A stretch of DNA of 64,000 nucleotides from Verrucomicrobiia bacterium. Its GTDB lineage: Bacteria > Verrucomicrobiota > Verrucomicrobiia > Limisphaerales > CAIMTB01. A program made the position numbers and the translations under genes. This document shows positions 10,763 to 63,836 of this stretch, piece by piece; position 1 is the first letter of the stretch; each line of letters begins with the position of its first letter. The stretch spans positions 1 to 64,000 of the forward strand of contig JAHCBA010000036.1 of NCBI GenBank assembly GCA_019634625.1, in the 5' to 3' direction. The notes below the pieces were generated by a model that was not told the origin of the DNA, made no database searches, and worked only from the letters and a program-made list of their open reading frames with translations.

Positions 10763-12916
10763 ATGTCGTTTCTGAATCCAGTTCTGCTTGCGATGACCGC
10801 CGCGGTGGCGGTGCCGATCCTGATCCACCTGTTGAACCGGCGCCGTTTTCGCCGGGTGTCGTGGGCGGCGATGCGGTTTCTGCGGGCCAGCATCGAGAAG
10901 AACCGGCGCCGGATGGAGCTGGAGGACTGGATCCTGCTGGCGCTGCGGTGCCTGATGGTGCTGTTGCTGGCGCTGGCGCTGGCCCGGCCGGCGTTGCGGT
11001 CGGCGGCGGCGTTTCTGGAGACGGGCCGGGCGGCGGCGGTATTGGTGTTGGATCGTTCGGGGAGCATGCAGGCGGGGGATGGGGTCCGGACGCGCTTCGA
11101 TCTGGCGAAGGAGGCGGCGGAGGCGGCCCTGGAGGCGTATCCGGCGGGATCGACGGTGGCGATGGTGCTGGGGGCGGACCGGTTGGAGGAGCCGGTGGGG
11201 GAACCGGCGTTCGATCTGGCGCGGGTCCGGCAGGCGGTACGGGAGGCGACGGTGAGCGAGTTGGGGACGGACCATGCGGTGGGACTGCTGCGGGCGCTGG
11301 AGGTATTGGGGGGGCAGACGGCCTTGCGGAAGGAGATCGTGCTGGTGACGGACCGGCAGGGCTGGGGATGGCGTCGGTGGCCTGAGGTGGAGGCGGCGCT
11401 GTTGGAGGTGGCGCAGGACACGCGGTTGCGGGTGGTCCTGGTGGGCGCGCCGGTGGAGGAGAACCTGTCGGTGGTGGAACTCAGCCGGTCGGCGGGGTTT
11501 GCGACGGCGGGTGAGCCGGTGCGGTTCCAGGCGGAAGTGGCCTACCGCGGGGGGCAACCGATGCGGCAGGTGCGGGCGACGCTTCACGTGAACGGGGGGC
11601 CCGCGGTGGACGAGGCGTTGGCGGAGGAGATGATGCCTGGAGAATCGCGGCGGCTGACCTTTTTCGCGCGGCTGCCTTCGCCGGGCTGGCATGCGGTCAG
11701 TGTGCGGCTGCCGGCGGATCGGATGCCGGCGGACGATGGGGGGACGCGGATGGTCCGTGCGGTGGAGCGGGTGCGAGTCCTGGTGGTGGACGGGGATGCG
11801 GAGTCGAACGGGGCGTTCTTTCTGAGGCAGGCGTTGCAGCCGGTTCCGCGGGAGGTGGCGCCGGAGTATTTCCTGCAGCCGCGGGTGGTGGCGGCGGGGC
11901 AACTGGCCTTCACGCGGCTGGGGGATTTCGATGCGGTGATCCTCTCGGATGTGCCGCCGCTGGCGTCCGGGGCTGTGGACGCGCTGGCGCGATATGTCCG
12001 GGAAGGCGGGGCGCTGATCGGGTTTGCCGGGCCGCAGGCGCAGGAGGCGTTTTATCACGGGGAGCTTCGTGACCGGACGGGGTTGCTGCCGGCGTCGCTG
12101 GGGGGGCTGAAGGGCAATCCCGAGTCGGAAGAGGGGGTGTTGCACTGGGAGCAGGGGCCCTACCGGCACCCGGTGTTGACCCTGTGGAACGAGGCGGGTG
12201 CGGGGACGCTGGCGGGGGTGCGATTCCTGGCGGGCTGGGAATGGGTGATGCCGTTGGCGGAGGCGGGGAGGGCGGGAATGGACTCGGAGGTGATTGTGCG
12301 CTGGGCGGACGGGACTCCGGCGGTGGTGGAGCGGCGGTTGGGCCGGGGACGGGCGATGTGGTTTGGGAGCACGGCGGGGACGGGGTGGAACGACCTGGCG
12401 GTCCGGCCGGCCTTCGTGCCGTTGTTGCACCGGGCGGTGGGGTTGCTGGCGGAGACGGCCGAGGCGCAGCGGAATGGCCGGGTGGGGATGGCGATGGGGG
12501 TGCGGATGGCACCGGAATGGACTGGGAGGGACGTGGTGGTGACGGTTCCGGGGGTGCCGGAGCGTCGGGTGACGCGGCTGGTGGGGGCGGGGGAGGACGG
12601 GGCACAACTGGTTTTCGAGGAGACGGTTCGGGCGGGGGTGTACGGGGTGGCGGCGCCCGGGGATCCGACGGTGCTGGCGCAGTTCGCGGTGTGGCCCGAT
12701 CCGGCGGAATCGGATCTGACGGACTGGACGCCGGAGCAGCGTGAGGAGGTGGAGAAGCGGGCCCAGGTGATCGACTGGGAGCCGGGTCAGGATCTGCGTG
12801 CGCTGTTCGAGCGGGAGCGGGTCGGGGTGGAGATCTGGTGGCCGTTGATCCTGGGGGTGCTTGTGTTGGGGTGTGTGGAGAGTTGGCTGGCGCAGCGGTT
12901 CAGCCGTTCCAAGTGA
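10763..12916 (+). CDS. BatA-type membrane vWA protein
   Basis: A 717-residue protein that begins with the BatA/aerotolerance N-terminal domain (MSFLNPVLLAMTAAVAVPIL, HLLNRRRFRRVSWAAMRFL) and a second membrane helix (LALRCLMVLLLALALA). The vWA domain follows, with MIDAS D97-R-S99-G-S101-M. The middle holds beta-rich domains and a region resembling glutamine-amidotransferase folds (VLVVDGDAESNG). A final helix (WWPLILGVLVLGCVESWLA) anchors the C terminus. Predicted to expose most of its mass to the periplasm. It is the second gene of the DUF58 operon. Verrucomicrobial and planctomycete homologues are common, but none is functionally well defined. Confidence 0.9.
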   Translation: MSFLNPVLLAMTAAVAVPILIHLLNRRRFRRVSWAAMRFLRASIEKNRRRMELEDWILLALRCLMVLLLALALARPALRSAAAFLETGRAAAVLVLDRSGSMQAGDGVRTRFDLAKEAAEAALEAYPAGSTVAMVLGADRLEEPVGEPAFDLARVRQAVREATVSELGTDHAVGLLRALEVLGGQTALRKEIVLVTDRQGWGWRRWPEVEAALLEVAQDTRLRVVLVGAPVEENLSVVELSRSAGFATAGEPVRFQAEVAYRGGQPMRQVRATLHVNGGPAVDEALAEEMMPGESRRLTFFARLPSPGWHAVSVRLPADRMPADDGGTRMVRAVERVRVLVVDGDAESNGAFFLRQALQPVPREVAPEYFLQPRVVAAGQLAFTRLGDFDAVILSDVPPLASGAVDALARYVREGGALIGFAGPQAQEAFYHGELRDRTGLLPASLGGLKGNPESEEGVLHWEQGPYRHPVLTLWNEAGAGTLAGVRFLAGWEWVMPLAEAGRAGMDSEVIVRWADGTPAVVERRLGRGRAMWFGSTAGTGWNDLAVRPAFVPLLHRAVGLLAETAEAQRNGRVGMAMGVRMAPEWTGRDVVVTVPGVPERRVTRLVGAGEDGAQLVFEETVRAGVYGVAAPGDPTVLAQFAVWPDPAESDLTDWTPEQREEVEKRAQVIDWEPGQDLRALFERERVGVEIWWPLILGVLVLGCVESWLAQRFSRSK

Positions 12917-12929
12917 GGGAGCCCTGGCG

Positions 12930-15365
12930 ATGAACGATTTGTTTTTGCGATGGGCGGGGACGGGGTTGGAACCCGGGGGCGAGGTGGTGGGGATGCAGTT
13001 CGGGCTGCACCCGGCGGTGGGCTGGGGCTGGTTTGCGCTGCTGGTGGGGGTGGCCGGGGCGGTGGCCTGGGGGAGCTATCGTCGGCGGGATGTGGAGCTG
13101 ACGCCTGGCCGGCGCCGGGTGCTGACGGGGTTGCGGGCCCTGGCATTGCTGGCCATCGCGGGAGTGCTGCTGCGTCCGGGGCTGGTGTTGAGCGTCGAGG
13201 GGTTGGTGCGGCAGGGGCTGGTGTTGCTGGTGGATCAGAGCGCCAGCATGGCGCTGCAGGATCCGCGGACGGAGGAGCGGGACCGGTTGCGGGCGGCGAT
13301 GATGGACGGGCGGGTGTCGGCCCGGGGGGGGTGGGAGCAGTCGATCCCGCCGGGGGAGGAGCGAAGGCCGGCGCGGGTGGAAATGGTACGGGCGGCGCTG
13401 ACCAACCGGGAACTGGCGCTGGTCGAGCGCCTGGGGCGTGGTTTCGAGGTGCGGGCGGCGGGTTTTTCGGGAGCGCTCGAACCGCTGGCGGGCGGCGAGC
13501 CGGAGGCGGGGACTCAAGGGACGCCACGCGGAGCGGTGACCGGGGAGGGATTGGCGTTGCAGTTGCGGGCGGACGGCCGCGAGACGGCCCTGGGGACGGC
13601 CTTGCGGGAGTTGCTGGAACGGGAGCAGGGACGGCCCTTGGGCGCGGTGGTGATGTTCACGGACGGGATTCGGAATGCCGGGATGGATCCGAGGGAACTG
13701 GCGGAACGGATGCGTGAGGCGGGGGTGAGGATCTACCCGGTTGGCGTGGGGACGACGGCGCCGCGGGATTTGCAGGTGGTGGAACTGGGGGCGCCGGAGG
13801 TGGCGTTTGCACGGGACGAGGTGCCGGTGACGGTGCGGGTGCTGGGTCGGGGGTATGCGGGCCAGACGACGCCGGTGAGGCTCCTGTTGGACGGGGAGCG
13901 GGTGGACGAGCGGGACGTGACCTTCGACGGGGAGGGCGAGGTGGAATTGACGATGAGGCTGGCGCCTGAGTCGGTGGGAGATTTCGAACTGGCGGTGGAG
14001 CTTCCGGTGCGGGCCGACGAAATTCTGGGCGAGAACAACCGGGAGGCGCGGCGTCTGCGGGTGGTGGATGACCGGGTGCGGGTGCTGCTGCTCGACCAGT
14101 CGCCGCGGTGGGAGTTTCGATATCTCCAGGCGCTGTTGCTGCGGGACCGTCGGGTGACGCTGAAGTGTGTGTTGTTTGACGGGGACCCGGCGATTGCGAG
14201 GGGACCGGACACCCCGTACCTCGACGGGTTTCCGAGCCGGCGCGAGGAGTTGTTCGAATACGACCTGGTAGTCTTCGGGGATGTCGATCCGAGGAACTTC
14301 ACGGCATCGCAGTTGGAGATGGTGGCGGAGTTCGTGTCCCGCACGGGCGGGGGATTCCTGATGGTGGCCGGGCGGCGGTTCAGTCCGTGGTCCTACCGGG
14401 ACACCCCGATCGAGCGGTTGCTGCCGGTGGAGTTTGACCGGCCGCTGGTGGACCACGCGGGGACGGCGTTGCATGAGCGGCCGGTGATGTTGGGGATGAC
14501 GGCGGCGGGTCGGGCGAGCCGGTTCTTCCGGGTGAGCGAGGACGAGGAGGAGAACGAGCGGCGGTGGGCGGCGCTGCCCTCATGGTACTGGGTGGCGCCG
14601 GTGGGGAGGGCCAAGCCGGCAGCGGAGGTCCTGTTGATCGACGAGGGACGGTCGGGTCCGGGCGCGCCGGCCCCGGTGGTGGCTCGGCAGCAGTATGGGG
14701 TGGGGCAGACGATGTTCATCGGGACGGACAACGTGTGGCGGTGGCGTCGGAACGAGGGGGAGGCGTTCTATACGGCCTTCTGGGGGCGGGTGGTGCAGAG
14801 GATGTCGATTCAGCATCTGGTGAGCGGGAGCCGGCGCACGCAACTGGCGCTGGACCGGGCGGCGGTGACGCCGGGGGAGAGGGTGGGGGTGACGGCGCGG
14901 ATGTATTCGAGCGCGTTCGAGCCGCTGACCGAGGATTCGGTGGTGGCGCGGATCGAGCGGGATGGGGAGGACGTCCGGCTGATTTCGGAACTGGTGCTCA
15001 GGGCGGTGCCGGATCAGGCGGGGCTTTACCAGGCGGATCTGGTGGCGCCGGGGCCAGGGCGGTACCGGCTCCGGTTGGGGGACGAGGCTCCGGCGGCGGT
15101 GGATTTCACGGTGGACGAGCGGCGGATCGAGGCGGGAGAGACGGCGTTGCAGGAGGGATTGCTGCGGGAGCTGGCGGAGATGACCGGGGGGGGGTTCTTC
15201 CGGGAGGAGGATCTGCACCGGTTGCCCGATGTGGTGGAGAGCGGGGCGGACCGGGTGCGGTCGCGCCGGGGCGTGGATCTCTGGTCATCGCCGTTGTACT
15301 ACCTGGCGATCCTGGGGTTGCTGGCCGTGGAGTGGGTGTTGCGGAAGTGGTGGCAGCTCAAGTGA
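12930..15365 (+). CDS. Large membrane vWA protein with GATase-like region
   Basis: An 811-residue protein with two N-terminal helices (WGWFALLVGVAGAVAWG and GLRALALLAIAGVLLRPGL), a vWA domain with MIDAS D102-Q-S-A-S-M, and further conserved vWA blocks (VVMFTDGIRNAG). A beta-sandwich segment follows, and then a class I GATase-like region (VRVLLLDQSPRWEFRYLQALL, YDLVVFGDVDP). A C-terminal helix LYYLAILGLLAVEWVLRKWW closes it. The ATG at 12930 is used; it follows the BatA-type gene by 13 bases. It is the last gene of the operon. The paired vWA proteins of this class are presumed to form a membrane complex; the target is unknown. Confidence 0.88.
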   Translation: MNDLFLRWAGTGLEPGGEVVGMQFGLHPAVGWGWFALLVGVAGAVAWGSYRRRDVELTPGRRRVLTGLRALALLAIAGVLLRPGLVLSVEGLVRQGLVLLVDQSASMALQDPRTEERDRLRAAMMDGRVSARGGWEQSIPPGEERRPARVEMVRAALTNRELALVERLGRGFEVRAAGFSGALEPLAGGEPEAGTQGTPRGAVTGEGLALQLRADGRETALGTALRELLEREQGRPLGAVVMFTDGIRNAGMDPRELAERMREAGVRIYPVGVGTTAPRDLQVVELGAPEVAFARDEVPVTVRVLGRGYAGQTTPVRLLLDGERVDERDVTFDGEGEVELTMRLAPESVGDFELAVELPVRADEILGENNREARRLRVVDDRVRVLLLDQSPRWEFRYLQALLLRDRRVTLKCVLFDGDPAIARGPDTPYLDGFPSRREELFEYDLVVFGDVDPRNFTASQLEMVAEFVSRTGGGFLMVAGRRFSPWSYRDTPIERLLPVEFDRPLVDHAGTALHERPVMLGMTAAGRASRFFRVSEDEEENERRWAALPSWYWVAPVGRAKPAAEVLLIDEGRSGPGAPAPVVARQQYGVGQTMFIGTDNVWRWRRNEGEAFYTAFWGRVVQRMSIQHLVSGSRRTQLALDRAAVTPGERVGVTARMYSSAFEPLTEDSVVARIERDGEDVRLISELVLRAVPDQAGLYQADLVAPGPGRYRLRLGDEAPAAVDFTVDERRIEAGETALQEGLLRELAEMTGGGFFREEDLHRLPDVVESGADRVRSRRGVDLWSSPLYYLAILGLLAVEWVLRKWWQLK

Positions 15366-37921: not shown

Positions 37922-39598
37922 TCAGCCTGCCTTCGATCTTGGAGATCCGTCCCTCGCGTTGCTGGTGCATCTTGTTGCGGTCCTCTTCGCCCACGACGCG
38001 GGAGGAACGGTGCGCGGCGTCGCGCGCGTGACGTCCTGAAGGGCGACCCCAGATGGAAGAATGCTGCCCTGCCCCTGTGCGACCTCGTTCTCCACGAGAG
38101 CTGCGAGGTGCGAGACGATCGTCCTGGTCTCCTCCGCCTGGGCTTTGAGTTCCTCGGCGGCGCTGGCCGTCTCCTCGGCGCCCGAGGCATTGCCCTGGGT
38201 GACGCGATCCATTTGGGCGACGGCCGTGTTGACCTGGGAGATGCCCTGCAACTGCTCGCGGGAAGCGGTCGCGATCTCGGCGACGACCCCGTCGAGCTGC
38301 TTCGCCTTTTCCGCGATCCTGGCCAGCCGTTCGGCGACCTGCCCGCTGAGGCCGGCGCCATGGGAACTTTTCTCGATCGAATCGCCGATGCGCTCGGCGG
38401 TTTCTCGGGCGGCCTGGGCGCTGCGCTGGGCGAGGCTGCGCACTTCGTCGGCGACAACGGCGAATCCCTGACCGGCCTCTCCGGCCCGGGCCGCTTCGAC
38501 GGCGGCGTTGAGGGCCAGGATGTTGGTCTGAAAGGCGATCTCGTCGATGGTCTTGATGATGCGCGAAATGTTGTCGCTGGACGCCTTGATGGCATCCATG
38601 GCGGCGGTCATTGCCGCCATTTCCCGGGTGCCCGCATCGGCCTCCGAGCTGGTGCTTGCGGCGAGCGACTTCGCGTGGTCGGCGCTGTCGGCATTCTTGC
38701 GGGTCGTGCCCGCCATCTCCACGAGAGAGGCGCTCGTCTCCTCCAGCGAGGCCGCCTGCTGGCTGGCTCCTTCGGCCAGATTCTGGCTTGCTCCGGAGAT
38801 CTGCGCCGCAGCGGCCAGGTTCTGTTCGCTGGCCCCCCGTATCCGGGCGATGGCATCACGCAAGGGAGCGACGATCATGCGGCGGTTGAGAAACATGAAG
38901 CCGAGCCCGATGCCGCCGGACAGGGGCAGAACCCAGAACAGACTCTGCACCATGCCTGCCGCGACGACTTCGTCCACGCGGGCGAGGTCCGCCTTCAGGA
39001 CAAAGGCGCCATGCACCTCGCCGGCCTTCCAGTTTTCCATCGCGAATCCGAGGATGTCTTTGCCGTCGCCGGTCGGACTGGTGGCCGGGTCGCCATGGCA
39101 GGCCAGGCAATCCTGGGTGAGCCGGATGGGGCGCGCGTACACGATCTGGTTGGCTTCCCGGTCGATCTTCACCAGTTCGGGTACGTCCCCGCGCTCGAGA
39201 ATGTTCAGGATCTCCCTTTCTGAAGCGGTGGGAGTGTTTTCGGGATTGCGCGCCTGGTTCTTGGGCACGCGAAACTCGAAGCCGGACTCCTCGGCGGCCT
39301 TCGCGATCGCCTCCCACGCCGCAACGACTGGAATCGTCCGGTAGATTGTCGAGCCGCGCAGGTCGCCGGATTGCCGGTATTCCTCGAGGAGCTTGCGACG
39401 ATCGAAGGCACCGCGTTCGCCGAGCAGGGAGATGCTCTCGCGGACGTTTTCCGCTTCGACGACGGCGGCACGCATGGCCTGGACCGTGAGATCGACGCCC
39501 TGTTGCTCGATTACAAATTTTTGCTTTAGCAGGGTGGCCGATACGGCCAGGGCGACGGCGCCCAATGCAGCGAAAACGACCTTGGTTCCGAGTTTCAT
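37922..39598 (-). CDS. Methyl-accepting chemotaxis protein with haem-binding DUF3365-like sensor
   Basis: A 558-residue chemoreceptor. Residues 1-30 hold a membrane helix ([18 protein letters not shown]). The periplasmic domain resembles DUF3365/Tll0287: [49 protein letters not shown] and a c-type haem motif C164-L-A-C167-H168-G. A second helix ([19 protein letters not shown]) leads into the signalling domain, whose tip ([36 protein letters not shown]) is fully conserved. No clear HAMP is seen. The last 25 residues look out of frame: contracting a (CG)4 tract at 38021-38028 by one unit would extend the protein to a stop at 37874. Likely senses redox state or a haem ligand. No che genes are nearby. 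Confidence 0.92.
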
Positions 39599-39883
39599 GC
39601 GATTCGATCGGTGCGGAATGTCATGTGTTGAATCGGAGGTTCTGAGGTCTTCCTGTAGTTTCAGCGGCGGTATCGACGTGCCCCAAATGGGGGCAGCAAC
39701 GCCGTGCGCCTTCGGGGCGTTTGTATCGATATCTTCCGCCCAAGACCGTGCGTTCGAGGGGCTTATGGCCATGATCAACGGGAGTCAATTTCAGGAGGGC
39801 ATGGCCGCCACGATCCGCCCGGTGCTGATTCGCTGGTAAGAAAGACTGGGTTTGGTGCTCGAAACGTGATGGACGAGGAAGCC
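39599..39883. other. Upstream region of the chemoreceptor, no gene
   Basis: No convincing coding sequence on either strand. The stretch holds a short inverted repeat, GCCCCAAATGGGGGC-like near 39680, and ATGGCCATGATCAACGGG-type text that looks like an intergenic repeat, but I found no second copy in this window. It must contain the promoter of the minus-strand chemoreceptor. Confidence 0.35.
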
Positions 39884-39935
39884 TCTCACGGAGGCACGAA
39901 GACACGGGGAAGGATGAGAATGAGATGGAGACCCT
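39884..39935 (+). repeat. 52-bp dispersed repeat, copy 1
   Basis: TCTCACGGAGGCACGAAGAC followed by ACGGGGAAGGATGAGAATGA. It is repeated with few changes at 44930-44981, so the propeller-KAP gene is flanked on both sides by direct copies about 5 kb apart. Confidence 0.8.
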
Positions 39936-39958
39936 TGGGGTCGGCGGGGTGGCCGGGG

Positions 39959-40013: not shown

Positions 40014-40294
40014 TCGGCTCGGATCCCGCGGATGGGTGCTGCGACCCCTGGCGGGGTCGTGTGCGAGGTGGGACTTCTGCCCGGGGGTCGAACCCGCAGA
40101 GCCGGGTCCGACCCCCGGCTAATCTCTGGAAACCCTCCGGGTTTCCGGGACCTGATCGAAGGGGAAGTTGCCAGGCTCGTTGTGCTCGGGCGCAGCTGCG
40201 AGTTATCGGAAGGCGTGTCGGAATCGGTAGCGACAGGAGAGACGAAGGTTCGCTCATCCCCGGGGTTCGTTCCGGTTCGATTCCGATACTGATA

Positions 40295-40348
<54 letters not shown>

Positions 40349-40600: not shown

Positions 40601-43600
40601 ATGAGTGCCCCGTCTTTCTCCACGAAGCACAAGGGGGCGATGTCCGCCTCCGACCCGAGGGATGGGCGGCGTCGGAACTGGGAGGTGAACCGGGCCCGGC
40701 TGCGATGGTTTGGGGCGGGGTTGGCGGTGTTGCTGGTGTCGGGAGGGTGGTTTTGCTGGCTGCAGCCTCCGCTGCCGGTTGGCCTGGTTCGTGCGGGGTT
40801 TCCTTCGTGGAGTTGGTGGTGGCAACCGCGTGAGGAGCATGCGGCGATGCGGCTGCCCCGGCTGCCATCGGCCCGATACAACGCCTCTTTCTTCATCAAG
40901 AGGTCGGGCTGGGTGGTGGGGGAGGCAGGGTTGCTTGTCCGTACCATGGATGGGGGCCGGTCCTGGACGGTTCCGTCGGAGGTCACGTGGGAGGCACCTG
41001 CGGGCGTGGAGCCGGAGGCAAGCGCAGCCACAGAGGCATACGGCGAGAAGGCGGGAGACATGCCGCCGAACGTCGAGCAGCGTTCCTTGCCGGCGGAGCA
41101 ACGTGGGGTCCGGCAACCGGACGCCGAAACACCGCGGGGACCGCGAGACTTGTATGCGGTGCATTTTGCCGATGAGCAGCGCGGCTGGGTGGTGGGGGAC
41201 GGGGGGGTAATTCTGCGGACGGAGGATGGCGGGGCGACGTGGCGGAGGCAGATGTCGGGCACCGATGCGGATCTCCGATCGGTGTCCACGGTCGATGGAA
41301 CGAATGGCTGGGCAGTGGGCTGGGATGGGATCGTTCTGCGAACAGCGGATGGGGGGGCGACGTGGGGAGCGCAGACCTCGGGGATCAGGGAGCGCCTATT
41401 GTCCGTGGCGTTCGCGGATGGTCAGCGAGGCTGGGCGGTGGGCGAGGCGGGGACGATTTTGCGGACGGAGGATGGCGGGGCGAGCTGGCGGGAGCAGACC
41501 TCGGGCACCAAGGAGTATCTGATGTCGGTGGCAGTGGCGGACGGGCAGCGCGCCTGGGCGGTGGGTGGGGGAGGGACCCTTCTGCGGACGGAGGATGGCG
41601 GGGAGAATTGGAGGGTGCCGACTTCGGGTTCGGGCGCGAACGAAGAGTTCCGTTCCGTGGCGATGGCCGATGGAACGAATGGCTGGGCGGTGGGTTGGGG
41701 CGGAACAATCCTACGGACGGAGGATGGTGGCGCGACGTGGCGGGCCCAGACTTCGGGCACCCGGGAGCGTCTGGTTTCGGCCGTGGTGGCGGAGGGTCGG
41801 CGTGGCTGGGCCATGGGGCAGGGTGGGACGATTCTGCGGACGGAGGATGGCGGGGCGACGTGGTGGGCACAGACCGCGGGCCCCAGGGAGGATCTCGAGT
41901 CTGTGGCGTTGGCGGACGGGCAGCGCGGATGGGCGGTGGGGAGGGGCGGGACGATTCTGCGGACGGAGGATGGCGGGGCGACCTGGCGGGCCCAGGCAGC
42001 GGGCATGGTGGAGAATCTCCGGTCTGTGGCGTTGGTCGATGGGCGGCTGGGTTGGGCGGTGGGTGAGGCGGGGACGATTTTGCGGACGGAGGATGGCGGG
42101 GCGAGCTGGCGGGCGCAGGACTCGGGCACCGCGGTGAGTCTATCGTCCGTGTCGGCGGGGGATGGGCGGCGTGGCTGGGCGGTGGGTTCGGGCGGGACGA
42201 TCCTGCGGACGGAGGATGGCGGGGCGAACTGGCGGGCCCAGGACTCGGGCACCGTGGTGGATCTACCGTCCGTCTCGGCGCTGGATGCTCTGCGTGGCTG
42301 GGCGGTGGAATCGATCGGGCGAATCCTTCACACCGATGACGGCGGTGGAAGCTGGCGGGTCCAGTACGCGGGAGTGGGGCAGATCCTGCGGGCCGTGTGG
42401 ATGGCGGATGGGCAACGCGGGTGGGCGGTGGGAGAGGAGGGCGCGATTCTGAGAACCGAGGACGGCGGGGCGAGCTGGCAGGGGCAATCGTCGGGCACGC
42501 TTCAAACGCTCCATGCCGCCGCACTGGTGGATGGGCAGCGCGGCTGGGTGGTGGGCAATGGCGGCGCCATCCTGCGGACGGAGGATGGTGGGGCGAGTTG
42601 GCGGAAGCAGAATTCGGGCACGGTGGAGGATCTCCGATCCGTGGCGGTGGCCGATGGGCAGCGGGGATTGGCAGTGGGCAGGGGCGGCACGATTCTGCGG
42701 ACGGAGGATGGCGGGGAGAACTGGCAGCGGGTGGAGATGGGGCGCTACCGCCGATGGCCTGCGCCGGTGTTCTGGGTGAGCCTGGTGGCCGCGGCGGGAC
42801 TTGGGTGGGTGGGCTGGCGGGTGCCGCCGACGGATGCGAGCCGGCGCCGCACCACGGCCATCGAGGATTTTGCCGCATCGGATCGGCCGCTGCGGGCCGG
42901 GGAATTTGACGCGCTGAATCTGGGGCCCCTGGCCGAGGGCATTGCCAATTTCCTGCGACACGAAAAGACGCTGGGACCGCTGACCTTCGCGGTGGAGGGA
43001 CGATGGGGTTCCGGGAAGAGTTCGCTGATGGGGCTGTTGCGGTCGCGATTGGAGCGGCACGGCTTCCGCACCGTCTGGTTCAACGCGTGGCATCACGAGA
43101 GCGAGGCCCAGGTGCTGGCGGCGCTGCTGGAGGCCATACGCAACGAGGCTGTGCCCGCGTGGATGTCATGGGAGGGGTTGCGATTCCGGTGCCGGCTGAT
43201 CCATCGGCGGCTGATTCGACGCTGGGCCATGGTGCTGGCGGGGGTTGGAGCCGTGGCGGCCCTGGGGGCGGTGGTCCACACCTTCGGGCCCGACTGGCGG
43301 CGGTGGCTGGAGGCGTTGGAGCAATCGACCGCGATCATCCTGGGCGGCAAGCTGGCGGTGCTGGCGGTGGGGGTTGCCGCGGCGGTGAAGACGCTGCAGG
43401 GCCTGCGGGCCTTTGGGGTGGACCCGGCCAAGCTCATGGCGTCCATGACGAACAAGGCCCGCGTGTCGGATCTCCAGGCACAGACCAGCCTGCGGCACCG
43501 GTTTGCGGAGGAGTTCGCCGACGTCACCGAGGCGCTGCAACCGAAGACGATGACGGTGTTCATCGACGATCTCGACCGTTGCGAGCCGAAGCAGGTGATG

Positions 43601-44896
43601 GAGGTCATGCGGTGCCTGAACTTCCTGGCGTCGTCGGGCGAGTGTTTCCTGATCCTGGGCATGGAGGAGCAGGTGGTGACCAACTGCGTGGCGTTGTCGC
43701 TGAGCGACCAGTTTGTGATGGAGGACGGGCTGGTGGTGGACAACAAGGGCGCGATGGCGAGGCACCGGCGGGATTACGCCAAGCAGTGGATGGAGAAGTT
43801 GATCCAGATCCGCATCCCGGTTCCGGCCGCCGATGACGCCCAGTTGAAGGCCCTGCTGCGGGGTCCGAAGGAGGGCGGGACCCTGGAACGGAAGGCGTCG
43901 GTGGCGGAGGCCCGGGACTGGCCCGACCTGCTGCGACGGTGGGGCGCCGGGGGGTGGGAGCGGGTGAAGCCGGTCGCGCCGTGGGTGGCGGCGGTGCTGA
44001 CCGCGTCGGTGTGTTTCGGCCTGGTGCACGGGCAGTTGAAGTCGGCGTCCGAGAGGAACCGGAGGCAGGCGGAGGCCAGCGCGGCGGCCCTGCGGGACGC
44101 TGGCCGGCCCCTGGCGACCTGGCCCACGCAAGGCGTGCTGCAGCCGCAGCATCTTGCCGGGCTTGCGCTTGAACTGGCCGAACCGGCATCGGGAAAGGCC
44201 CTGATGACCAACGAGGCGTTGACGGGATGGCTCTCGACGCAGCGGTGGACGGTGCGGATGGAGTTCCAGCCGGGCACGGGCCTTCTGGCGGCTCCGAGGC
44301 TCCCGGAAACGGCCCGCGATCCTGCGAATCAGGGGCCTGTCGTTCGCGACCCGGACCGTGAACGCGATCCGGCTGAGCGGGTCCGGGAATGGCAGGTCGT
44401 GCCGGGACTGACGGATGAGGGTTGGAAGTGGTATCGGGTGGGCCTGGCGGTGGTGCTGGTGCTGGCGGCCGGTGTGAGTGCGGCACGATTGCTGGACTGG
44501 CTGCAGGAGCGAATCGAGGACTCCGAAGATTTTCGCGTGGCGCTGGACGACTGGCATCCGGAGATCGCCCGGCGGGAGCCGACACCGACGCCGCGTGCGG
44601 TCAAGCGCCTGCTGAACAAGCTGCGCTTCTACTCGATGTTGTTGCGAACGTTGTCCGGGCCGCGCGGACGGCCGGTCCTGAGCGACCGGATCATTGTGGC
44701 CTTCGGGATCCTGGAGGAGGAGCACGACGACCTCGGGTCGGTGAGGCTGACCGATCCTTCGGAGGCGCAGGTGGCGGATCTTGCGGCGCTCCAATCGGCC
44801 TTGCGGGAACACGCGGGCGTCTTCGGATTTCTCCAGAGGAGTGTGAGGACCGGCCCGCCGCCGGGGTCGCGACCGGGGTCACCTCCAACGGCCTGA
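40601..44896 (+). CDS. Membrane KAP P-loop NTPase fused to a double YCF48-type beta-propeller
   Basis: A 1431-residue fusion from the ATG at 40601. Residues 37-53 form a first helix (WFGAGLAVLLVSGGWFCWL). Residues about 100-715 hold 14 blades of about 41 residues with the YCF48/BNR signature (GWAVGxGGTILRTEDGGATW). The first blade is separated from the other 13 by a 50-residue Pro/Glu insert. A helix follows (VFWVSLVAAAGLGWVGW, about 722). The KAP NTPase has Walker A G800-R-W-G-S-G-K806-S-S and Walker B FIDDLDRC at 987-994. Two helices lie between them (about 876 and 910), as is usual in KAP proteins, and two more at about 1125 and 1276 bound an extra loop. The KAP end PRAVKRLLNKLRF is present. 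Predicted topology: propellers in the periplasm, NTPase in the cytoplasm. KAP proteins include phage-exclusion factors such as PifA; a sensing or defence role here is inference. Confidence 0.9.
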   Translation: MSAPSFSTKHKGAMSASDPRDGRRRNWEVNRARLRWFGAGLAVLLVSGGWFCWLQPPLPVGLVRAGFPSWSWWWQPREEHAAMRLPRLPSARYNASFFIKRSGWVVGEAGLLVRTMDGGRSWTVPSEVTWEAPAGVEPEASAATEAYGEKAGDMPPNVEQRSLPAEQRGVRQPDAETPRGPRDLYAVHFADEQRGWVVGDGGVILRTEDGGATWRRQMSGTDADLRSVSTVDGTNGWAVGWDGIVLRTADGGATWGAQTSGIRERLLSVAFADGQRGWAVGEAGTILRTEDGGASWREQTSGTKEYLMSVAVADGQRAWAVGGGGTLLRTEDGGENWRVPTSGSGANEEFRSVAMADGTNGWAVGWGGTILRTEDGGATWRAQTSGTRERLVSAVVAEGRRGWAMGQGGTILRTEDGGATWWAQTAGPREDLESVALADGQRGWAVGRGGTILRTEDGGATWRAQAAGMVENLRSVALVDGRLGWAVGEAGTILRTEDGGASWRAQDSGTAVSLSSVSAGDGRRGWAVGSGGTILRTEDGGANWRAQDSGTVVDLPSVSALDALRGWAVESIGRILHTDDGGGSWRVQYAGVGQILRAVWMADGQRGWAVGEEGAILRTEDGGASWQGQSSGTLQTLHAAALVDGQRGWVVGNGGAILRTEDGGASWRKQNSGTVEDLRSVAVADGQRGLAVGRGGTILRTEDGGENWQRVEMGRYRRWPAPVFWVSLVAAAGLGWVGWRVPPTDASRRRTTAIEDFAASDRPLRAGEFDALNLGPLAEGIANFLRHEKTLGPLTFAVEGRWGSGKSSLMGLLRSRLERHGFRTVWFNAWHHESEAQVLAALLEAIRNEAVPAWMSWEGLRFRCRLIHRRLIRRWAMVLAGVGAVAALGAVVHTFGPDWRRWLEALEQSTAIILGGKLAVLAVGVAAAVKTLQGLRAFGVDPAKLMASMTNKARVSDLQAQTSLRHRFAEEFADVTEALQPKTMTVFIDDLDRCEPKQVMEVMRCLNFLASSGECFLILGMEEQVVTNCVALSLSDQFVMEDGLVVDNKGAMARHRRDYAKQWMEKLIQIRIPVPAADDAQLKALLRGPKEGGTLERKASVAEARDWPDLLRRWGAGGWERVKPVAPWVAAVLTASVCFGLVHGQLKSASERNRRQAEASAAALRDAGRPLATWPTQGVLQPQHLAGLALELAEPASGKALMTNEALTGWLSTQRWTVRMEFQPGTGLLAAPRLPETARDPANQGPVVRDPDRERDPAERVREWQVVPGLTDEGWKWYRVGLAVVLVLAAGVSAARLLDWLQERIEDSEDFRVALDDWHPEIARREPTPTPRAVKRLLNKLRFYSMLLRTLSGPRGRPVLSDRIIVAFGILEEEHDDLGSVRLTDPSEAQVADLAALQSALREHAGVFGFLQRSVRTGPPPGSRPGSPPTA
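41150..42745 (+). repeat. Coding tandem repeat, 13 propeller blades
   Basis: Thirteen consecutive copies of a roughly 123-126 bp unit with the near-invariant core GCGGACGGAGGATGGCGGGG. Nucleotide identity between blades is high, so the array probably expanded or is homogenised by recombination. A fourteenth, diverged blade precedes it near 40930. Confidence 0.9.
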
Positions 44897-44929: not shown

Positions 44930-45060
44930 TCTCACGGAGGCACGAAGACACGGAGAAGGATGGGAATGAGATGGGGACTGGTGGGGAGAGGTGGCAACTC
45001 CGCGAAGCGTCGCCTCGGAGGGTCGAGTTCCATGAGGCCGCAGGGGCGGGGTGCGACGGG
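44930..45060 (+). repeat. 52-bp dispersed repeat copy 2 plus a partial 155-bp repeat
   Basis: Positions 44930-44981 repeat 39884-39935 (CTCACGGAGGCACGAAGACA). From about 44990 a partial copy of the 155-bp element follows (GGCAACTCCGCGAAGCGTCG, then GGGTCGAGTTCCATGAGGCC). Together they fill most of the gap between the KAP-propeller gene and the CotH gene. Confidence 0.75.
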
Positions 45061-50330: not shown

Positions 50331-50744
50331 TCAGTCCGACGCGGAAGGAGACTGGGTGTAGTCCACCACCCGCAGCTTTGGAACGCGCTTGTATTCGTCC
50401 GCGTTGCGGGTCAGCAGCGGCAGGTCGTGTTCGAGCGCACAAACCGCGATCCAGAGGTCGTGGACGCCCACCATTTGGCGGTTTCGTGCGAGTGCGGCCC
50501 ACGTTTCAGAGTAGAGGTGGAGCGTCTGCTCTGTGGGCCACACGACGCGATAGCGATCTAGGAACTGCGCGACGACCGTTGCCGAATGCCCAGCCAATAC
50601 CGCGCCGCGGAGGAACTCGCCCTTCACGACCCAGGGGAACGCAAGCGCCGCGCCCGGATGCTGGTCAATGAACCGCTGCTCAGGGCTGGCAGCCCCCTCG
50701 CGCCAGCGTCCGACCAGAAACGTCGTGTCGCTCAGGTAGTCCAA
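50331..50744 (-). CDS. vapC: PIN-domain toxin VapC
   Basis: A 137-residue PIN-domain ribonuclease toxin. Active-site acidic residues: D6 in LSDTTFL, E43 in KGEFL, D96 in GVHDLWIA, with D116 near the end of the core (LLTRNADEY). The start is a TTG at 50744, preceded by an excellent ribosome-binding site GGAGGG four bases away; there is no ATG that would keep the N-terminal Asp. The gene overlaps the end of vapB by 13 bases, the usual translational coupling of toxin and antitoxin. Confidence 0.9.
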   Translation of the reverse strand: MDYLSDTTFLVGRWREGAASPEQRFIDQHPGAALAFPWVVKGEFLRGAVLAGHSATVVAQFLDRYRVVWPTEQTLHLYSETWAALARNRQMVGVHDLWIAVCALEHDLPLLTRNADEYKRVPKLRVVDYTQSPSASD

Positions 50745-50971
50745 GGATCCCTCCAGTTCTTCCAATCGTTGGCCCAGCCGATGGTCTCCTCCATAAGCCC
50801 TGCCTGGTTCTTTGTGAGCGGCGGCAAGCCATCCATCTCCTTGGCCAAGTCGGCCAGCGTGCCGCGCTTTGGCACCAACTTCAGCACGACCGCCGAAAAC
50901 GATTCCTTGGGAGAACTTTTCCAGTCGGCAAGGCGGCCGTAGGCCTCGTCGGTAAGCGTAATCGTCTTCAT
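50732..50971 (-). CDS. vapB: VapB-type antitoxin (PF02697-like)
   Basis: A 79-residue antitoxin of the PF02697-like VapB group (MKTITLTDEAYGRLADWKSS, ESFSAVVLKLVPKRGTLADL). The N-terminal half should form the DNA-binding ribbon-helix-helix and the C-terminal half wraps the toxin. The ATG at 50971 is preferred over an upstream in-frame start at 51016. It precedes and overlaps vapC. Autoregulation by the VapBC complex is usual; an inverted repeat directly upstream may be the operator. Confidence 0.9.
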   Translation of the reverse strand: MKTITLTDEAYGRLADWKSSPKESFSAVVLKLVPKRGTLADLAKEMDGLPPLTKNQAGLMEETIGWANDWKNWRDPWTT

Positions 50972-50973
50972 GT

Positions 50974-50994
50974 ATGCACGATGACATGGTGCAT
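50974..50994 (-). promoter_or_regulatory. Candidate VapBC operator
   Basis: The inverted repeat ATGCAC (50974-50979) / GTGCAT (50989-50994), with a 9-base spacer, ends three bases before the vapB ATG. A TTGACA hexamer on the minus strand (51007-51002) could be a -35 box, but no good -10 follows. The position fits an autoregulatory operator; the call rests on position and symmetry only. Confidence 0.35.
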
Positions 50995-51045
50995 GTTGTC
51001 GTGTCAAATGATACACGGGTTAGCCTATAATAATAATAAAATAAT

Positions 51046-51203
51046 AAACCTGGCATTATTTGTTGACGCGCTTTTTATATTAAACCTGGCAGTATTTATT
51101 GACGAACCGCAGTCAGGTCGTCCTAGGCGGTCAGAATGGGATTCCTTGGGGAGTTCCGGGCAGGAACATGCTGGCAACAATAAAATATAAAATGCCTGAC
51201 TTA
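51046..51203. repeat. AT-rich copies of the TGCCTGAC short repeat
   Basis: Two direct copies, 51046-51068 and 51082-51104 (AAACCTGGCATTATTTGTTGACG type), and one inverted, 51173-51203 (CAACAATAAAATATAAAATG then CCTGAC). Their reverse complements match the units at 8618-8780. The surrounding 51010-51110 stretch is the most AT-rich in the window, with a run of TAA triplets. No gene is seen between 50972 and 51499. Confidence 0.65.
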
Positions 51204-61410: not shown

Positions 61411-62652
61411 ATGATCACCGGGGAGCTCAAGAGCCGCATCGACCGCATCTGGGACACGTTCTGGTCCGGAGGGATCTCCAACCCGCTCGAGGTCATCGGG
61501 CAGATCAAGGTGGTGGACATGATCGACCAGGTGCCGATGGAGGACCGCGACGCCAAGGGCGACCTCTACGAGTACATGCTCGGGAAGATCGCGACGGCCG
61601 GGCAGAATGGCCAGTTTCGCACCCCGCGGCACATCATCCAACTGATGGTCGAGTTGACCGCGCCGACACCCAAGGACGTGATCTGCGACCCGGCCTGCGG
61701 TACCGGCGGCTTCCTGGTGGCGGCGGGCGAGTACCTTCGCGCCCGGCATCCGGAGGTTCTCCGCGACACGAAACTGCGCGAGCATTTGCACCACCATCTC
61801 TTCCACGGATTCGACTTCGACAACACGATGCTGCGGATCGGCAGCATGAACCTGCTCCTGCACGGGGTGGAGAATCCGGACATCCGGTACCGGGATTCGC
61901 TCGCGCAGGACCACGCGGGGGAGGAGGACAAGTACACCCTGCTGCTCGCCAATCCGCCGTTCGCCGGGTCGCTCGACTACGAGAACACGGCGAAGGACCT
62001 GTTGCAGATCGTGAAGACGAAGAAGACCGAGTTGCTGTTCCTCGCGCTCTTCCTGCGGCTGCTGAAGCCGGGCGGCCGCGCCGCGGTGATCGTGCCGGAG
62101 GGCGTCCTGTTCGGCTCCAGCAAGACGCACCGTGAACTGCGGCGGATTCTGGTGGAGGAACAGAAGCTCGACGCGGTGATCTCGCTGCCCGGCGGTGTGT
62201 TCCGGCCCTATGCCGGGGTCTCGACGGCGATTCTGCTGTTCACCAAGACGAACTCTGGCGGGACGGATCACGTGTGGTTCTACGATGTCGATGCCGACGG
62301 CTGGTCGCTCGACGACAAGCGCAACGAGCTGCTGCCCGCCGAGAAGCTCGGTCCCACGCCACGCGTCCCGTTGACCCCTGACGATCACACGAAAAACAAC
62401 CTGGCCGACGCCCTCGCCCGCTGGTCGCGTCGCGACGGCGAGGAACGAAAGAACGCGCGCACCGCGCAGAGCTTCTGCGTGCCCAAGGCCGATCTCGTGG
62501 CCCAGGGCTATGACCTTTCGCTGAACCGGTACAAGGAGGTGGTCCACGAGGAGGTGAAGCATCGCGCGCCGAAGGAAATTCTCGGAGAGTTGGCGAGGAT
62601 CGAGGACGAGATCCAGCGGGGGATGCGGGAGTTGGAGGGGATGTTGAGGTGA
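61411..62652 (+). CDS. hsdM: Type I restriction-modification methyltransferase subunit HsdM, internally deleted
   Basis: DNA adenine methyltransferase subunit of a type I system, 413 residues. The N6-MTase motifs are intact: motif I DPACGTGGFL (from D93) and motif IV N181-P-P-F. RTPRHIIQLMVELTAPTPKD and the C-terminal FCVPKADLVAQGYDLSLNRY are typical. The N-terminal HsdM_N helical domain is not: residues 1-32 (MITGELKSRIDRIWDTFWSG, GISNPLEVIGQI) run directly into KVVDMIDQVPMEDRDAKGDL. In homologues known to me about 100 residues lie between these two blocks, including the YLLFLRRLDDL-type segment. The join is in frame, near 61506. The protein may be unable to assemble or recognise DNA normally. 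The stop overlaps hsdS by 4 bases. Confidence 0.93.
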   Translation: MITGELKSRIDRIWDTFWSGGISNPLEVIGQIKVVDMIDQVPMEDRDAKGDLYEYMLGKIATAGQNGQFRTPRHIIQLMVELTAPTPKDVICDPACGTGGFLVAAGEYLRARHPEVLRDTKLREHLHHHLFHGFDFDNTMLRIGSMNLLLHGVENPDIRYRDSLAQDHAGEEDKYTLLLANPPFAGSLDYENTAKDLLQIVKTKKTELLFLALFLRLLKPGGRAAVIVPEGVLFGSSKTHRELRRILVEEQKLDAVISLPGGVFRPYAGVSTAILLFTKTNSGGTDHVWFYDVDADGWSLDDKRNELLPAEKLGPTPRVPLTPDDHTKNNLADALARWSRRDGEERKNARTAQSFCVPKADLVAQGYDLSLNRYKEVVHEEVKHRAPKEILGELARIEDEIQRGMRELEGMLR

Positions 62653-63836
62653 GAAGTCGGCCCCAGGTTTGCATTGAGGAGTGCGCTGCCACCGTTTCAG
62701 GGGCGACGCCGAGCACTTCCGATCCATCCTATTGGGATGGCGATATCTGCTGGGCTACGCCAAAGGACCTTGGCGAACTGGAAGGGCCATTCATTTCGGA
62801 TACACCTCGCAAGATCACGCGGATTGGGCTGGATAGTTGTGCCGCGGCGGTTCTGCCGCCTCAATCCGTACTCTTCAGCTCACGCGCGCCGATCGGACAT
62901 GTCGCCATTAACACGGTTCCAATGGCGACCAATCAAGGATTCAAGAGCTTCATTCCTCGGTCAGACCGACTCATTGCCGGTTTTCTCTATCATTGGCTCC
63001 GATCGAATAGGGCATATCTCGAGAGCCTTGGTAACGGGGCTACGTTTAAGGAGGTTTCTAAGGCGGTTGTCTCGCGACTTGGAATTCCCCTTCCTCCGCT
63101 TCCCGAGCAGCGCCGCATCGCGGACGTGCTGGATCGGGCGGAGGCGTTGCGGGCCAAGCGCCGGGCCGCGCTTGATGAGATCGAGGCACTACCCCAGGCG
63201 ATCTTTCGAGGTCTGTTCGGAGAGGCCACGACTCAAGGCCGTCACCCGTGGGTTGTGCTCGCGGAATGTGCTGAGGTGGTCTCGGTTGTAGCGAAGGGAC
63301 GCAAGCTCGACGGAAGAGGTGCGGTGGAGGTGCCGTACCTTCGAGTGGCAAACGTCCAGGCCGGCTACTTGGACTTGTCGGAGGTGAAGAACATCGAGGC
63401 GCTACCATCGGAGGTGGCTGATCTGGCTTTGAAGGCATGGGATGTGCTGCTCACTGAAGGTGGTGACTTCGACAAGCTCGGGCGCGGTGCCTTGTTTGAT
63501 GGGCAGGTGCAGGGATGCATCCACCAGAATCACGTATTCAGAGTGCGCACGGATGCTTCCAAACTCTTGCCGGGGTACTTCCATGAGTACCTTCAAGGGC
63601 CCGCCGCACGCGCCTATTTCCTTCGTTGCGCCAAGCGAACCACGAACCTCGCCAGTATCAACATGACCCAACTGCGTTCGCTCCCCGTGCCGGTTCCTCC
63701 GATTGGCCTCCAGCTTGAATTCTCCCGCCGGGTCGCCGCGGTGGAGAAGCTGAAAGTCGCGCAACGCGCTTCGCTGGCGGAGTTGGACGCCCTCTTCGCC
63801 TCCCTCCAGCACCGCGCCCTTCGGGGCGAATTGTAG
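62649..63836 (+). CDS. hsdS: Type I restriction specificity subunit HsdS
   Basis: A 395-residue DNA-recognition subunit with two target-recognition domains. The first covers about residues 5-150 (YWDGDICWATPKDLGE, NQGFKSFIPR, NGATFKEVSKAVVSRLGIPL). A conserved coiled coil follows (PPLPEQRRIADVLDRAEALR, AKRRAALDEIEALPQAIF). The second covers about 200-360 (VPYLRVANVQAGYLDL, QNHVFRVR), and a closing coiled coil ends it. The start is a GTG at 62649 that overlaps the hsdM stop (GTGA). The first recognition domain is visibly lower in GC than its neighbours, the usual sign of domain exchange. Length is normal, with no break seen. Confidence 0.93.
   Translation: MRSRPQVCIEECAATVSGATPSTSDPSYWDGDICWATPKDLGELEGPFISDTPRKITRIGLDSCAAAVLPPQSVLFSSRAPIGHVAINTVPMATNQGFKSFIPRSDRLIAGFLYHWLRSNRAYLESLGNGATFKEVSKAVVSRLGIPLPPLPEQRRIADVLDRAEALRAKRRAALDEIEALPQAIFRGLFGEATTQGRHPWVVLAECAEVVSVVAKGRKLDGRGAVEVPYLRVANVQAGYLDLSEVKNIEALPSEVADLALKAWDVLLTEGGDFDKLGRGALFDGQVQGCIHQNHVFRVRTDASKLLPGYFHEYLQGPAARAYFLRCAKRTTNLASINMTQLRSLPVPVPPIGLQLEFSRRVAAVEKLKVAQRASLAELDALFASLQHRALRGEL

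Follow-up and report, generated by a model that had tools for sequence, protein, structure and literature searches.

A putative single-chain membrane receptor joining a 14-bladed propeller to a KAP NTPase

The window, i.e., the whole stretch of 64,000 nucleotides analysed here, contains a gene that encodes in a single chain a propeller of YCF48/Asp-box blades and a KAP NTPase. We consider it rather likely that the protein is a receptor of the inner membrane whose double propeller, on the periplasmic side, controls the cytoplasmic KAP NTPase, which acts at the membrane. The computed facts behind this reading are the single chain, the 14 blades, the closure of the second ring in the structural model, six conserved hydrophobic helices, the intact Walker motifs, the recurrence of the architecture in other genomes, and the reuse of the same sensor with another cytoplasmic half.

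Organisation of the gene and its surroundings

The gene lies at positions 40601-44896 of the forward strand, as do all its parts given below, and is a single open frame of 1431 amino acids with no internal stop. The frame is open from 40571 (TTG) or 40601 (ATG), and its stop codon is at 44894-44896. A further ATG, at 40640, is preceded by a better Shine-Dalgarno-like, purine-rich stretch, and the true start may lie there, 13 codons later. The order of the parts, established from the open frame, Pfam and homologues of the same architecture, is a first transmembrane helix (TM1), 14 YCF48/Asp-box blades forming a double propeller, a second helix (TM2), and the KAP NTPase, which bears a TM hairpin and, behind it, a further pair of helices. 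Pfam recognises both halves: YCF48 (PF14870) with an E-value of 3.9e-67, above its cut-off, and KAP_NTPase (PF07693) with an E-value of 1.5e-25 and 90.5 bits against a cut-off of 20.

TM1 (residues 36-54; 40706-40762), delimited by hydropathy and charge and conserved in the family, corresponds to a helix at residues 19-53 of the structural model and is preceded by an Arg-rich, presumably cytoplasmic tail. It is followed by a juxtamembrane, putatively periplasmic segment (residues 55-92; 40763-40876), modelled with low confidence, in which an alignment of 11 proteins reveals the motif P-x-E-x-x-A-x-x-R-L-P. The 14 blades consist of 13 exact Asp-box matches and a divergent first one (DGGRSW, residues 117-122); after blade 1 come a linker of about 50 residues and then 13 regular blades of about 41 residues each, ending near residue 713. 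The region between the last blade and the membrane carries the hallmark of the family, a [YW]PAP motif followed by TM2 (residues 716-739; 42746-42817), identified by alignment, motif scan and hydropathy; in the window protein, the motif YRRWPAP leads into TM2 proper (721-739).

The KAP NTPase core (42929-43861), defined by PF07693, a genome match and invariant alignment columns, has an intact Walker A (GRWGSGKSS, residue 800), an invariant NAWHH (828-832) and an intact Walker B (FIDDLDRC, residue 987). Between the two Walker motifs, hydropathy places a TM hairpin (residues 877-895 and 911-929; 43229-43387), and two helices are likewise found there in the members checked. The second TM pair (residues 1124-1142 and 1280-1298; 43970-44494), also assigned by hydropathy, encloses a predicted periplasmic loop of about 137 residues, and its position is kept in most homologues. 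These four helices bring the total to six, together with TM1 and TM2; a weaker seventh candidate (1016-1034) was discounted as a membrane helix, since it sits inside the KAP core. An earlier note on this DNA had described the uninterrupted frame of 1431 residues, 14 blades of the YCF48/BNR type, six probable membrane helices, the two Walker motifs and the membrane inserts that KAP proteins carry between them. All of this agrees with our reading: the blades are borne out by both the Asp-box count and the structural model, the helix layout recurs in homologues, and the hairpin fits the expected inserts.

The surroundings of the gene in the window contain nothing that points to a defence island. 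Upstream are a chemoreceptor-like protein (37922-39778) and DUF1080-type, PSD1-like and DUF1501 genes; downstream are a CotH/lamin-tail protein, a PIN-VapB-like pair, an oxidoreductase and FtsX genes. A short tandem array of the CGACGC type is found in front of the gene (40278-40348), and an unrelated large frame with a von Willebrand A domain lies at 12861-15365. The direct copies of a 52-bp repeat that the earlier note saw on either side of the gene do exist (39884-39940 and 44930-44986, both on the forward strand and outside the gene, 89% identical over 57 bp), but the repeat is dispersed genome-wide, with 12 copies at up to two mismatches over a 22-base core. A mobile element bounded by the two repeats was rejected, given some ten further copies elsewhere in the genome. 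An empty site was not demonstrated; the nearest relatives of the flanking gene in the genus are 55-59% identical.

The restriction-modification and vapBC genes signalled in the same note are also present, as a VapBC-like pair (PIN protein at 50334-51056) 5.4 kb from the gene and a type I specificity subunit, HsdS (62649-63833), 17.8 kb from it. Their relevance did not hold: ordinary genes lie in between, and we rejected membership of the gene in either locus, which are 5-18 kb away. The hint of a defence role drawn from this neighbourhood was not upheld, given these distances, the dispersed repeat, and the housekeeping neighbourhoods of the homologues, in which no partner is fixed.

Propeller model and membrane topology

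We modelled residues 1-760 with AlphaFold2, using 13 sequences, and obtained a mean pLDDT of 76, with values mostly between 85 and 95 in the blades and low confidence in the segment 53-90, the linker 131-180 and the end 714-760. In this model, DSSP delimits 14 four-stranded blades, which fall into two groups of seven. Ring B (blades 8-14, residues 427-713; 41879-42739) closes into a seven-bladed ring in the model; VIA-align superposes residues 429-713 on seven-bladed propellers with Z up to 34.3 and an rmsd of 2.1 over 278 residues. Ring A (40877-41875) comprises blade 1 (93-129), the disordered linker 131-180 and blades 2-7 (184-425), as judged from DSSP strands, pLDDT and the match to tandem propellers; it is seven-bladed by count, and the count suggests that it closes as well. 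Residues 87-702 align with the highly repetitive double propeller 2ymu (VIA-align, Z 32.2, rmsd 11.1, 546 residues), where the high rmsd probably reflects the orientation of the rings. Among the VIA-align rows, the absence of any given family carries no weight.

Foldseek ranks GH74 enzymes first, whose seven-bladed Asp-box propellers are arranged in tandem, and the search also returned the periplasmic sensor of the hybrid two-component protein BT4663, a weak match with a low TM-score. The modelled propeller region as a whole thus appears to resemble tandem 7+7 propellers. Among solved structures, the best sequence matches of the propeller are to Ycf48 (E-value 5.8e-23). For the KAP half, a prediction from two sequences reached a mean pLDDT of 32 and gave no usable model, and a profile search of the PDB returned just short P-loop stretches (E-value of 0.008 or worse), none of them a convincing relative.

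A single helix flanks the propeller at either end, the stretch from TM2 to Walker A has none, the hairpin separates Walker A from Walker B, and the last pair follows after it. Because there is one helix on each side of the propeller, an arrangement conserved in the family, the propeller is predicted to lie across the membrane from the NTPase. The use of ATP demands that the KAP domain be cytoplasmic, which would place the propeller in the periplasm, along with the loops of the hairpin and of the last pair. This predicted topology derives from hydropathy and charge: most homologues share the six-helix layout and a positive flank before TM1 and before TM3, whereas TM2 has positive flanks on both sides, which counts against it. 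The structural model and the hydropathy analysis, both proposed as checks of the earlier note, thus agree with its suggestion of two seven-bladed propellers held across the membrane from a cytoplasmic NTPase: they give 14 blades with ring B closed, a tandem 7+7 match overall, flanking helices, and a prediction of the two domains on opposite sides.

Distribution and evolution of the family

The architecture is not unique to the window. A scan of proteins from species genomes returned one full-length homologue (L002, 36% identity), and the order of another genome, that of an uncultured Methylococcaceae bacterium (L003), was also searched. Strong matches to the KAP module in large frames were found in 18 of the 301 genomes of this order, and wherever the contig allowed, these loci had TM1, blades, a [YW]PA[PAG]WY-like motif, TM2 and KAP. 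Pfam confirms the propeller and KAP in three members from the order and in one further protein (L105). Elsewhere, the architecture is present in 2/369 genomes of the gammaproteobacterial class, in 1/146 genomes of the order of L002, and in 1/388 genomes of the window's phylum, namely the window genome alone. A search with the KAP-family alignment gave no match in 148 genomes of another phylum (that of L030), a result of low weight since it had no positive control. None of the related genomes covered by the analysis shows the fusion. Overall, it recurs in about 20 genomes besides the window's, which answers the search for other YCF48-KAP chains that had been proposed, and no partner gene is common to the loci of the KAP-type homologues. 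Among their neighbours, named by sequence reading alone, are ATP synthase, tyrosyl-tRNA synthetase, serine-cycle enzymes and rpsF/RNase R. The genes that lie downstream are the same in one group of four homologues. Neither plasmids nor phages gave a match (near-identity search in plasmids; protein searches in both).

In the search of the Methylococcaceae order, a gap separates the family (best E-value per genome below 1e-29) from ordinary KAP proteins (E-value around 1e-11 or weaker), and this clade of KAP therefore goes with the propeller within the sample. The KAP alignment of the family shows no variation in Walker A, NAWHH, IDDLDRC or PVP, and the junctions are marked by conserved motifs (P-x-E-x-N-A-F-x-R-L-P after TM1, [YW]PA[PAG]WY before TM2). 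The number of 14 blades is not strict, since L002 and another protein (G1108) have fewer recognisable ones. We describe these proteins as a small, patchy and apparently undescribed family of putative one-protein receptors, mostly of methane-oxidising gammaproteobacteria. As the window genome encodes no further KAP protein and no further YCF48-type protein, the fused gene was probably acquired whole, and horizontal transfer is its likeliest history. Several members are at about the same distance from the window KAP (39-40%), and none of them stands out as a donor.

Several homologues have features of their own. One KAP-type member (L142:7253-12040, G219) has an in-frame TAG after Walker B and is either a pseudogene or affected by a sequencing error. 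In a subgroup (L140:7357-12069, L141:7769-12460, L143:7139-11857), the loop of the KAP hairpin extends to about 125 residues and contains several conserved Cys, which would suit a loop held by disulphide bonds in the periplasm. Many genomes of Poribacteria (L009-L013, L018-L020, L026, L028, L040) encode lipoprotein-like secreted proteins with about 20 YCF48 blades, without a second TM helix and without KAP.

The two halves evolve differently. The propeller diverges faster than KAP in nearly all pairs of homologues, e.g., 55% identity for the propeller and 86% for KAP between L140 and L143. The blades of the window protein are 61% identical to each other but about 42-48% identical to those at the same positions in homologues, and we conclude from this higher identity within the protein that blades have been re-amplified within lineages. 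These comparisons suggest a sensor rebuilt through blade amplification next to an NTPase that is kept fixed. Both halves are under purifying selection, stronger on the KAP core (dN/dS 0.04-0.10) than on blades 2-14 (0.13-0.24), and the latter values led us to reject positive selection for the sensor half. Synonymous divergence, too, is greater in the propeller than in KAP in two comparisons; these values are near saturation and must be read cautiously, but they point to the exchange or replacement of blades rather than to positive selection. The faster divergence of a repeat domain can also be mere relaxation.

The sensor is found with a second type of cytoplasmic half. A search with the module that runs from TM1 to blade 1 brought up a sister class, which four genomes of the Methylococcaceae order encode in several paralogues each (L191:298-4707, L192:4797-9155, L193:215-4324, L194:5206-9810, L195:4871-9406, L196:6660-11069, L197:5932-10467). 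These proteins of about 28 blades have TM1, 14 blades, PAPWY and TM2, followed by 14 further blades and by C-terminal SHOCT domains (Pfam, one member). The sensor module is thus used with at least two cytoplasmic halves, i.e., KAP or blades with SHOCT. A TIR-NACHT gene (Pfam, L191) lies near one sister locus, and a protein with the same TIR-like start near another. The stretches 3' of two sister genes (L191:4837-9000, L196:391-6530) encode a conserved protein of 304 amino acids whose start is signal-like, a small Sel1-like protein, the product of a further conserved gene and the TIR protein, a gene set that may be an operon-like conflict system.

Proposed function and alternatives

PifA and QatA are KAP proteins of phage exclusion or defence, and Kidins220 is a human neuronal scaffold with a KAP NTPase. 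The window protein resembles Kidins220/ARMS, PifA and Tmn in its Walker A and B motifs, the hairpin between them and its KAP_NTPase score. It differs from these proteins in having six helices rather than two and, at its N-terminus, the presumably periplasmic 14-bladed propeller; to our knowledge, no KAP protein with such a propeller N-terminal to the NTPase is known. Searches of the open literature gave no account of a chain that unites a YCF48 propeller and a KAP NTPase. In hybrid two-component sensors such as BT4663, periplasmic double propellers of 14 blades are linked through the membrane to a cytoplasmic output, an arrangement that the window protein may parallel; here the output would be a KAP NTPase, the blades are of the Asp-box type, and Pfam finds no histidine kinase, Reg_prop or Y_Y_Y domain. 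The author of the earlier note knew of no described system with this layout, which is half right: double-propeller sensors are known, but open papers describe none joined to KAP. Each half is known, hybrid two-component systems offer a functional parallel to the sensor layout, and the fusion is apparently undescribed. Outside these sensors, tandem seven-bladed Asp-box propellers characterise the GH74 xyloglucanases, where they are called type 3 (PMC2716378); these are secreted enzymes with 12-17% identity to the window protein. In Vps10/sortilin, an Asp-box propeller is likewise the ectodomain of a membrane receptor, and Pfam reports a Sortilin-Vps10 match over short stretches, but those proteins are eukaryotic and have one ten-bladed ring and no NTPase.

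The receptor we favour would work as follows. Its two seven-bladed Asp-box propellers, arranged in tandem and anchored by a membrane helix at either end, would bind a ligand in the periplasm, by analogy probably a protein or peptide tail (as for Ycf48) or a glycan (as for GH74 and BT4663). Proteins or glycans are what propellers of the Asp-box and Ycf48 kinds bind (PMC10403576 for Ycf48, PMC2716378 for GH74). Binding or release would shift the geometry of TM1 and TM2 and thereby the nucleotide state or the assembly of the KAP NTPase. The output would most likely take place at the membrane, because four more helices of the NTPase lie there, and could consist of remodelling, a change in permeability or the recruitment of a membrane complex. 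We infer the topology in the cell, the binding of a ligand, its coupling to the NTPase and the nature of the output from the computed features.

The propellers could instead recognise a phage as it adsorbs or injects its DNA, or one of its proteins at the membrane, and KAP could respond with membrane damage and abortive infection, as has been proposed for PifA and Tmn. Besides the defence roles of PifA and QatA, this draws on Tmn, a KAP family NTPase with two transmembrane domains that acts in phage defence (PMC11846954), on the patchy distribution of the family with its fast propeller turnover, and on the TIR-NACHT gene near a sister locus. PifA is also the best defence match in PADLOC (84.8 bits), but its best stretch covers only positions 6-206 of the 720 in the profile. 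The match to QatA of the QatABCD system, another KAP NTPase, extends over residues 768-1082 with 79.5 bits, far below the cut-off of 600 (NF041923); no qatBCD-like neighbours were seen within the window, and we know of no QatA fused to propellers. The KAP-type genes have no conserved defence gene or partner beside them and sit among tRNA synthetase-, ATP synthase-, C1 metabolism- and ribosomal-like genes, with no copy in plasmids or phages, stable synteny in several genomes and purifying selection. We hold an anti-phage receptor to be unlikely, if conceivable.

The same housekeeping neighbourhoods and the strong purifying selection on KAP would suit a factor for assembly or quality control, in which the propellers would chaperone a portion of a membrane complex on its periplasmic face, much as Ycf48 acts for photosystem II, and KAP would power insertion or disassembly. 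The propeller is closest to Ycf48 among solved structures, its blades share the Asp-box with the photosystem II assembly factors Ycf48/HCF136, and Ycf48 binds D1 (PMC10403576). However, Ycf48 is one seven-bladed propeller, whereas the window protein has 14 blades set between two TM helices and fused to an NTPase; its score for the Ycf48 equivalog (NF010237, 249.4 bits) falls short of the cut-off of 326. No fixed client gene lies nearby, and a factor of a core complex would hardly be expected in as few as 18 of the order's 301 genomes and in a single genome from the sample of the window's phylum. An assembly role seems to us quite improbable. The evidence favours a general envelope sensor over these two roles, though not decisively, and each of them retains some probability. 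That a secreted YCF48 protein and a KAP NTPase were joined by chance or by a recent accident, with no coupled function, is disfavoured and extremely improbable: both halves do occur separately elsewhere, but in the recurring fusion the junction motifs are conserved, the TM layout is unchanged and each half is under selection, and the window genome encodes neither a second KAP protein nor a second YCF48 protein.

The switch of KAP NTPases and their effect on the membrane are poorly known. With a presumed sensor and KAP in one chain in about 20 genomes, the input side of a KAP NTPase can be studied directly, and the sister class with its swapped cytoplasmic half provides a natural control for which part senses and which acts. 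As a speculative extension, to which we give little credence for now, both classes could be modular envelope receptors, in which a fast-rebuilt sensor of 14 blades with varied cytoplasmic outputs reports threats or damage at the surface (e.g., phage) through a change at the inner membrane. If true, one sensor module would be plugged into different cytoplasmic outputs.
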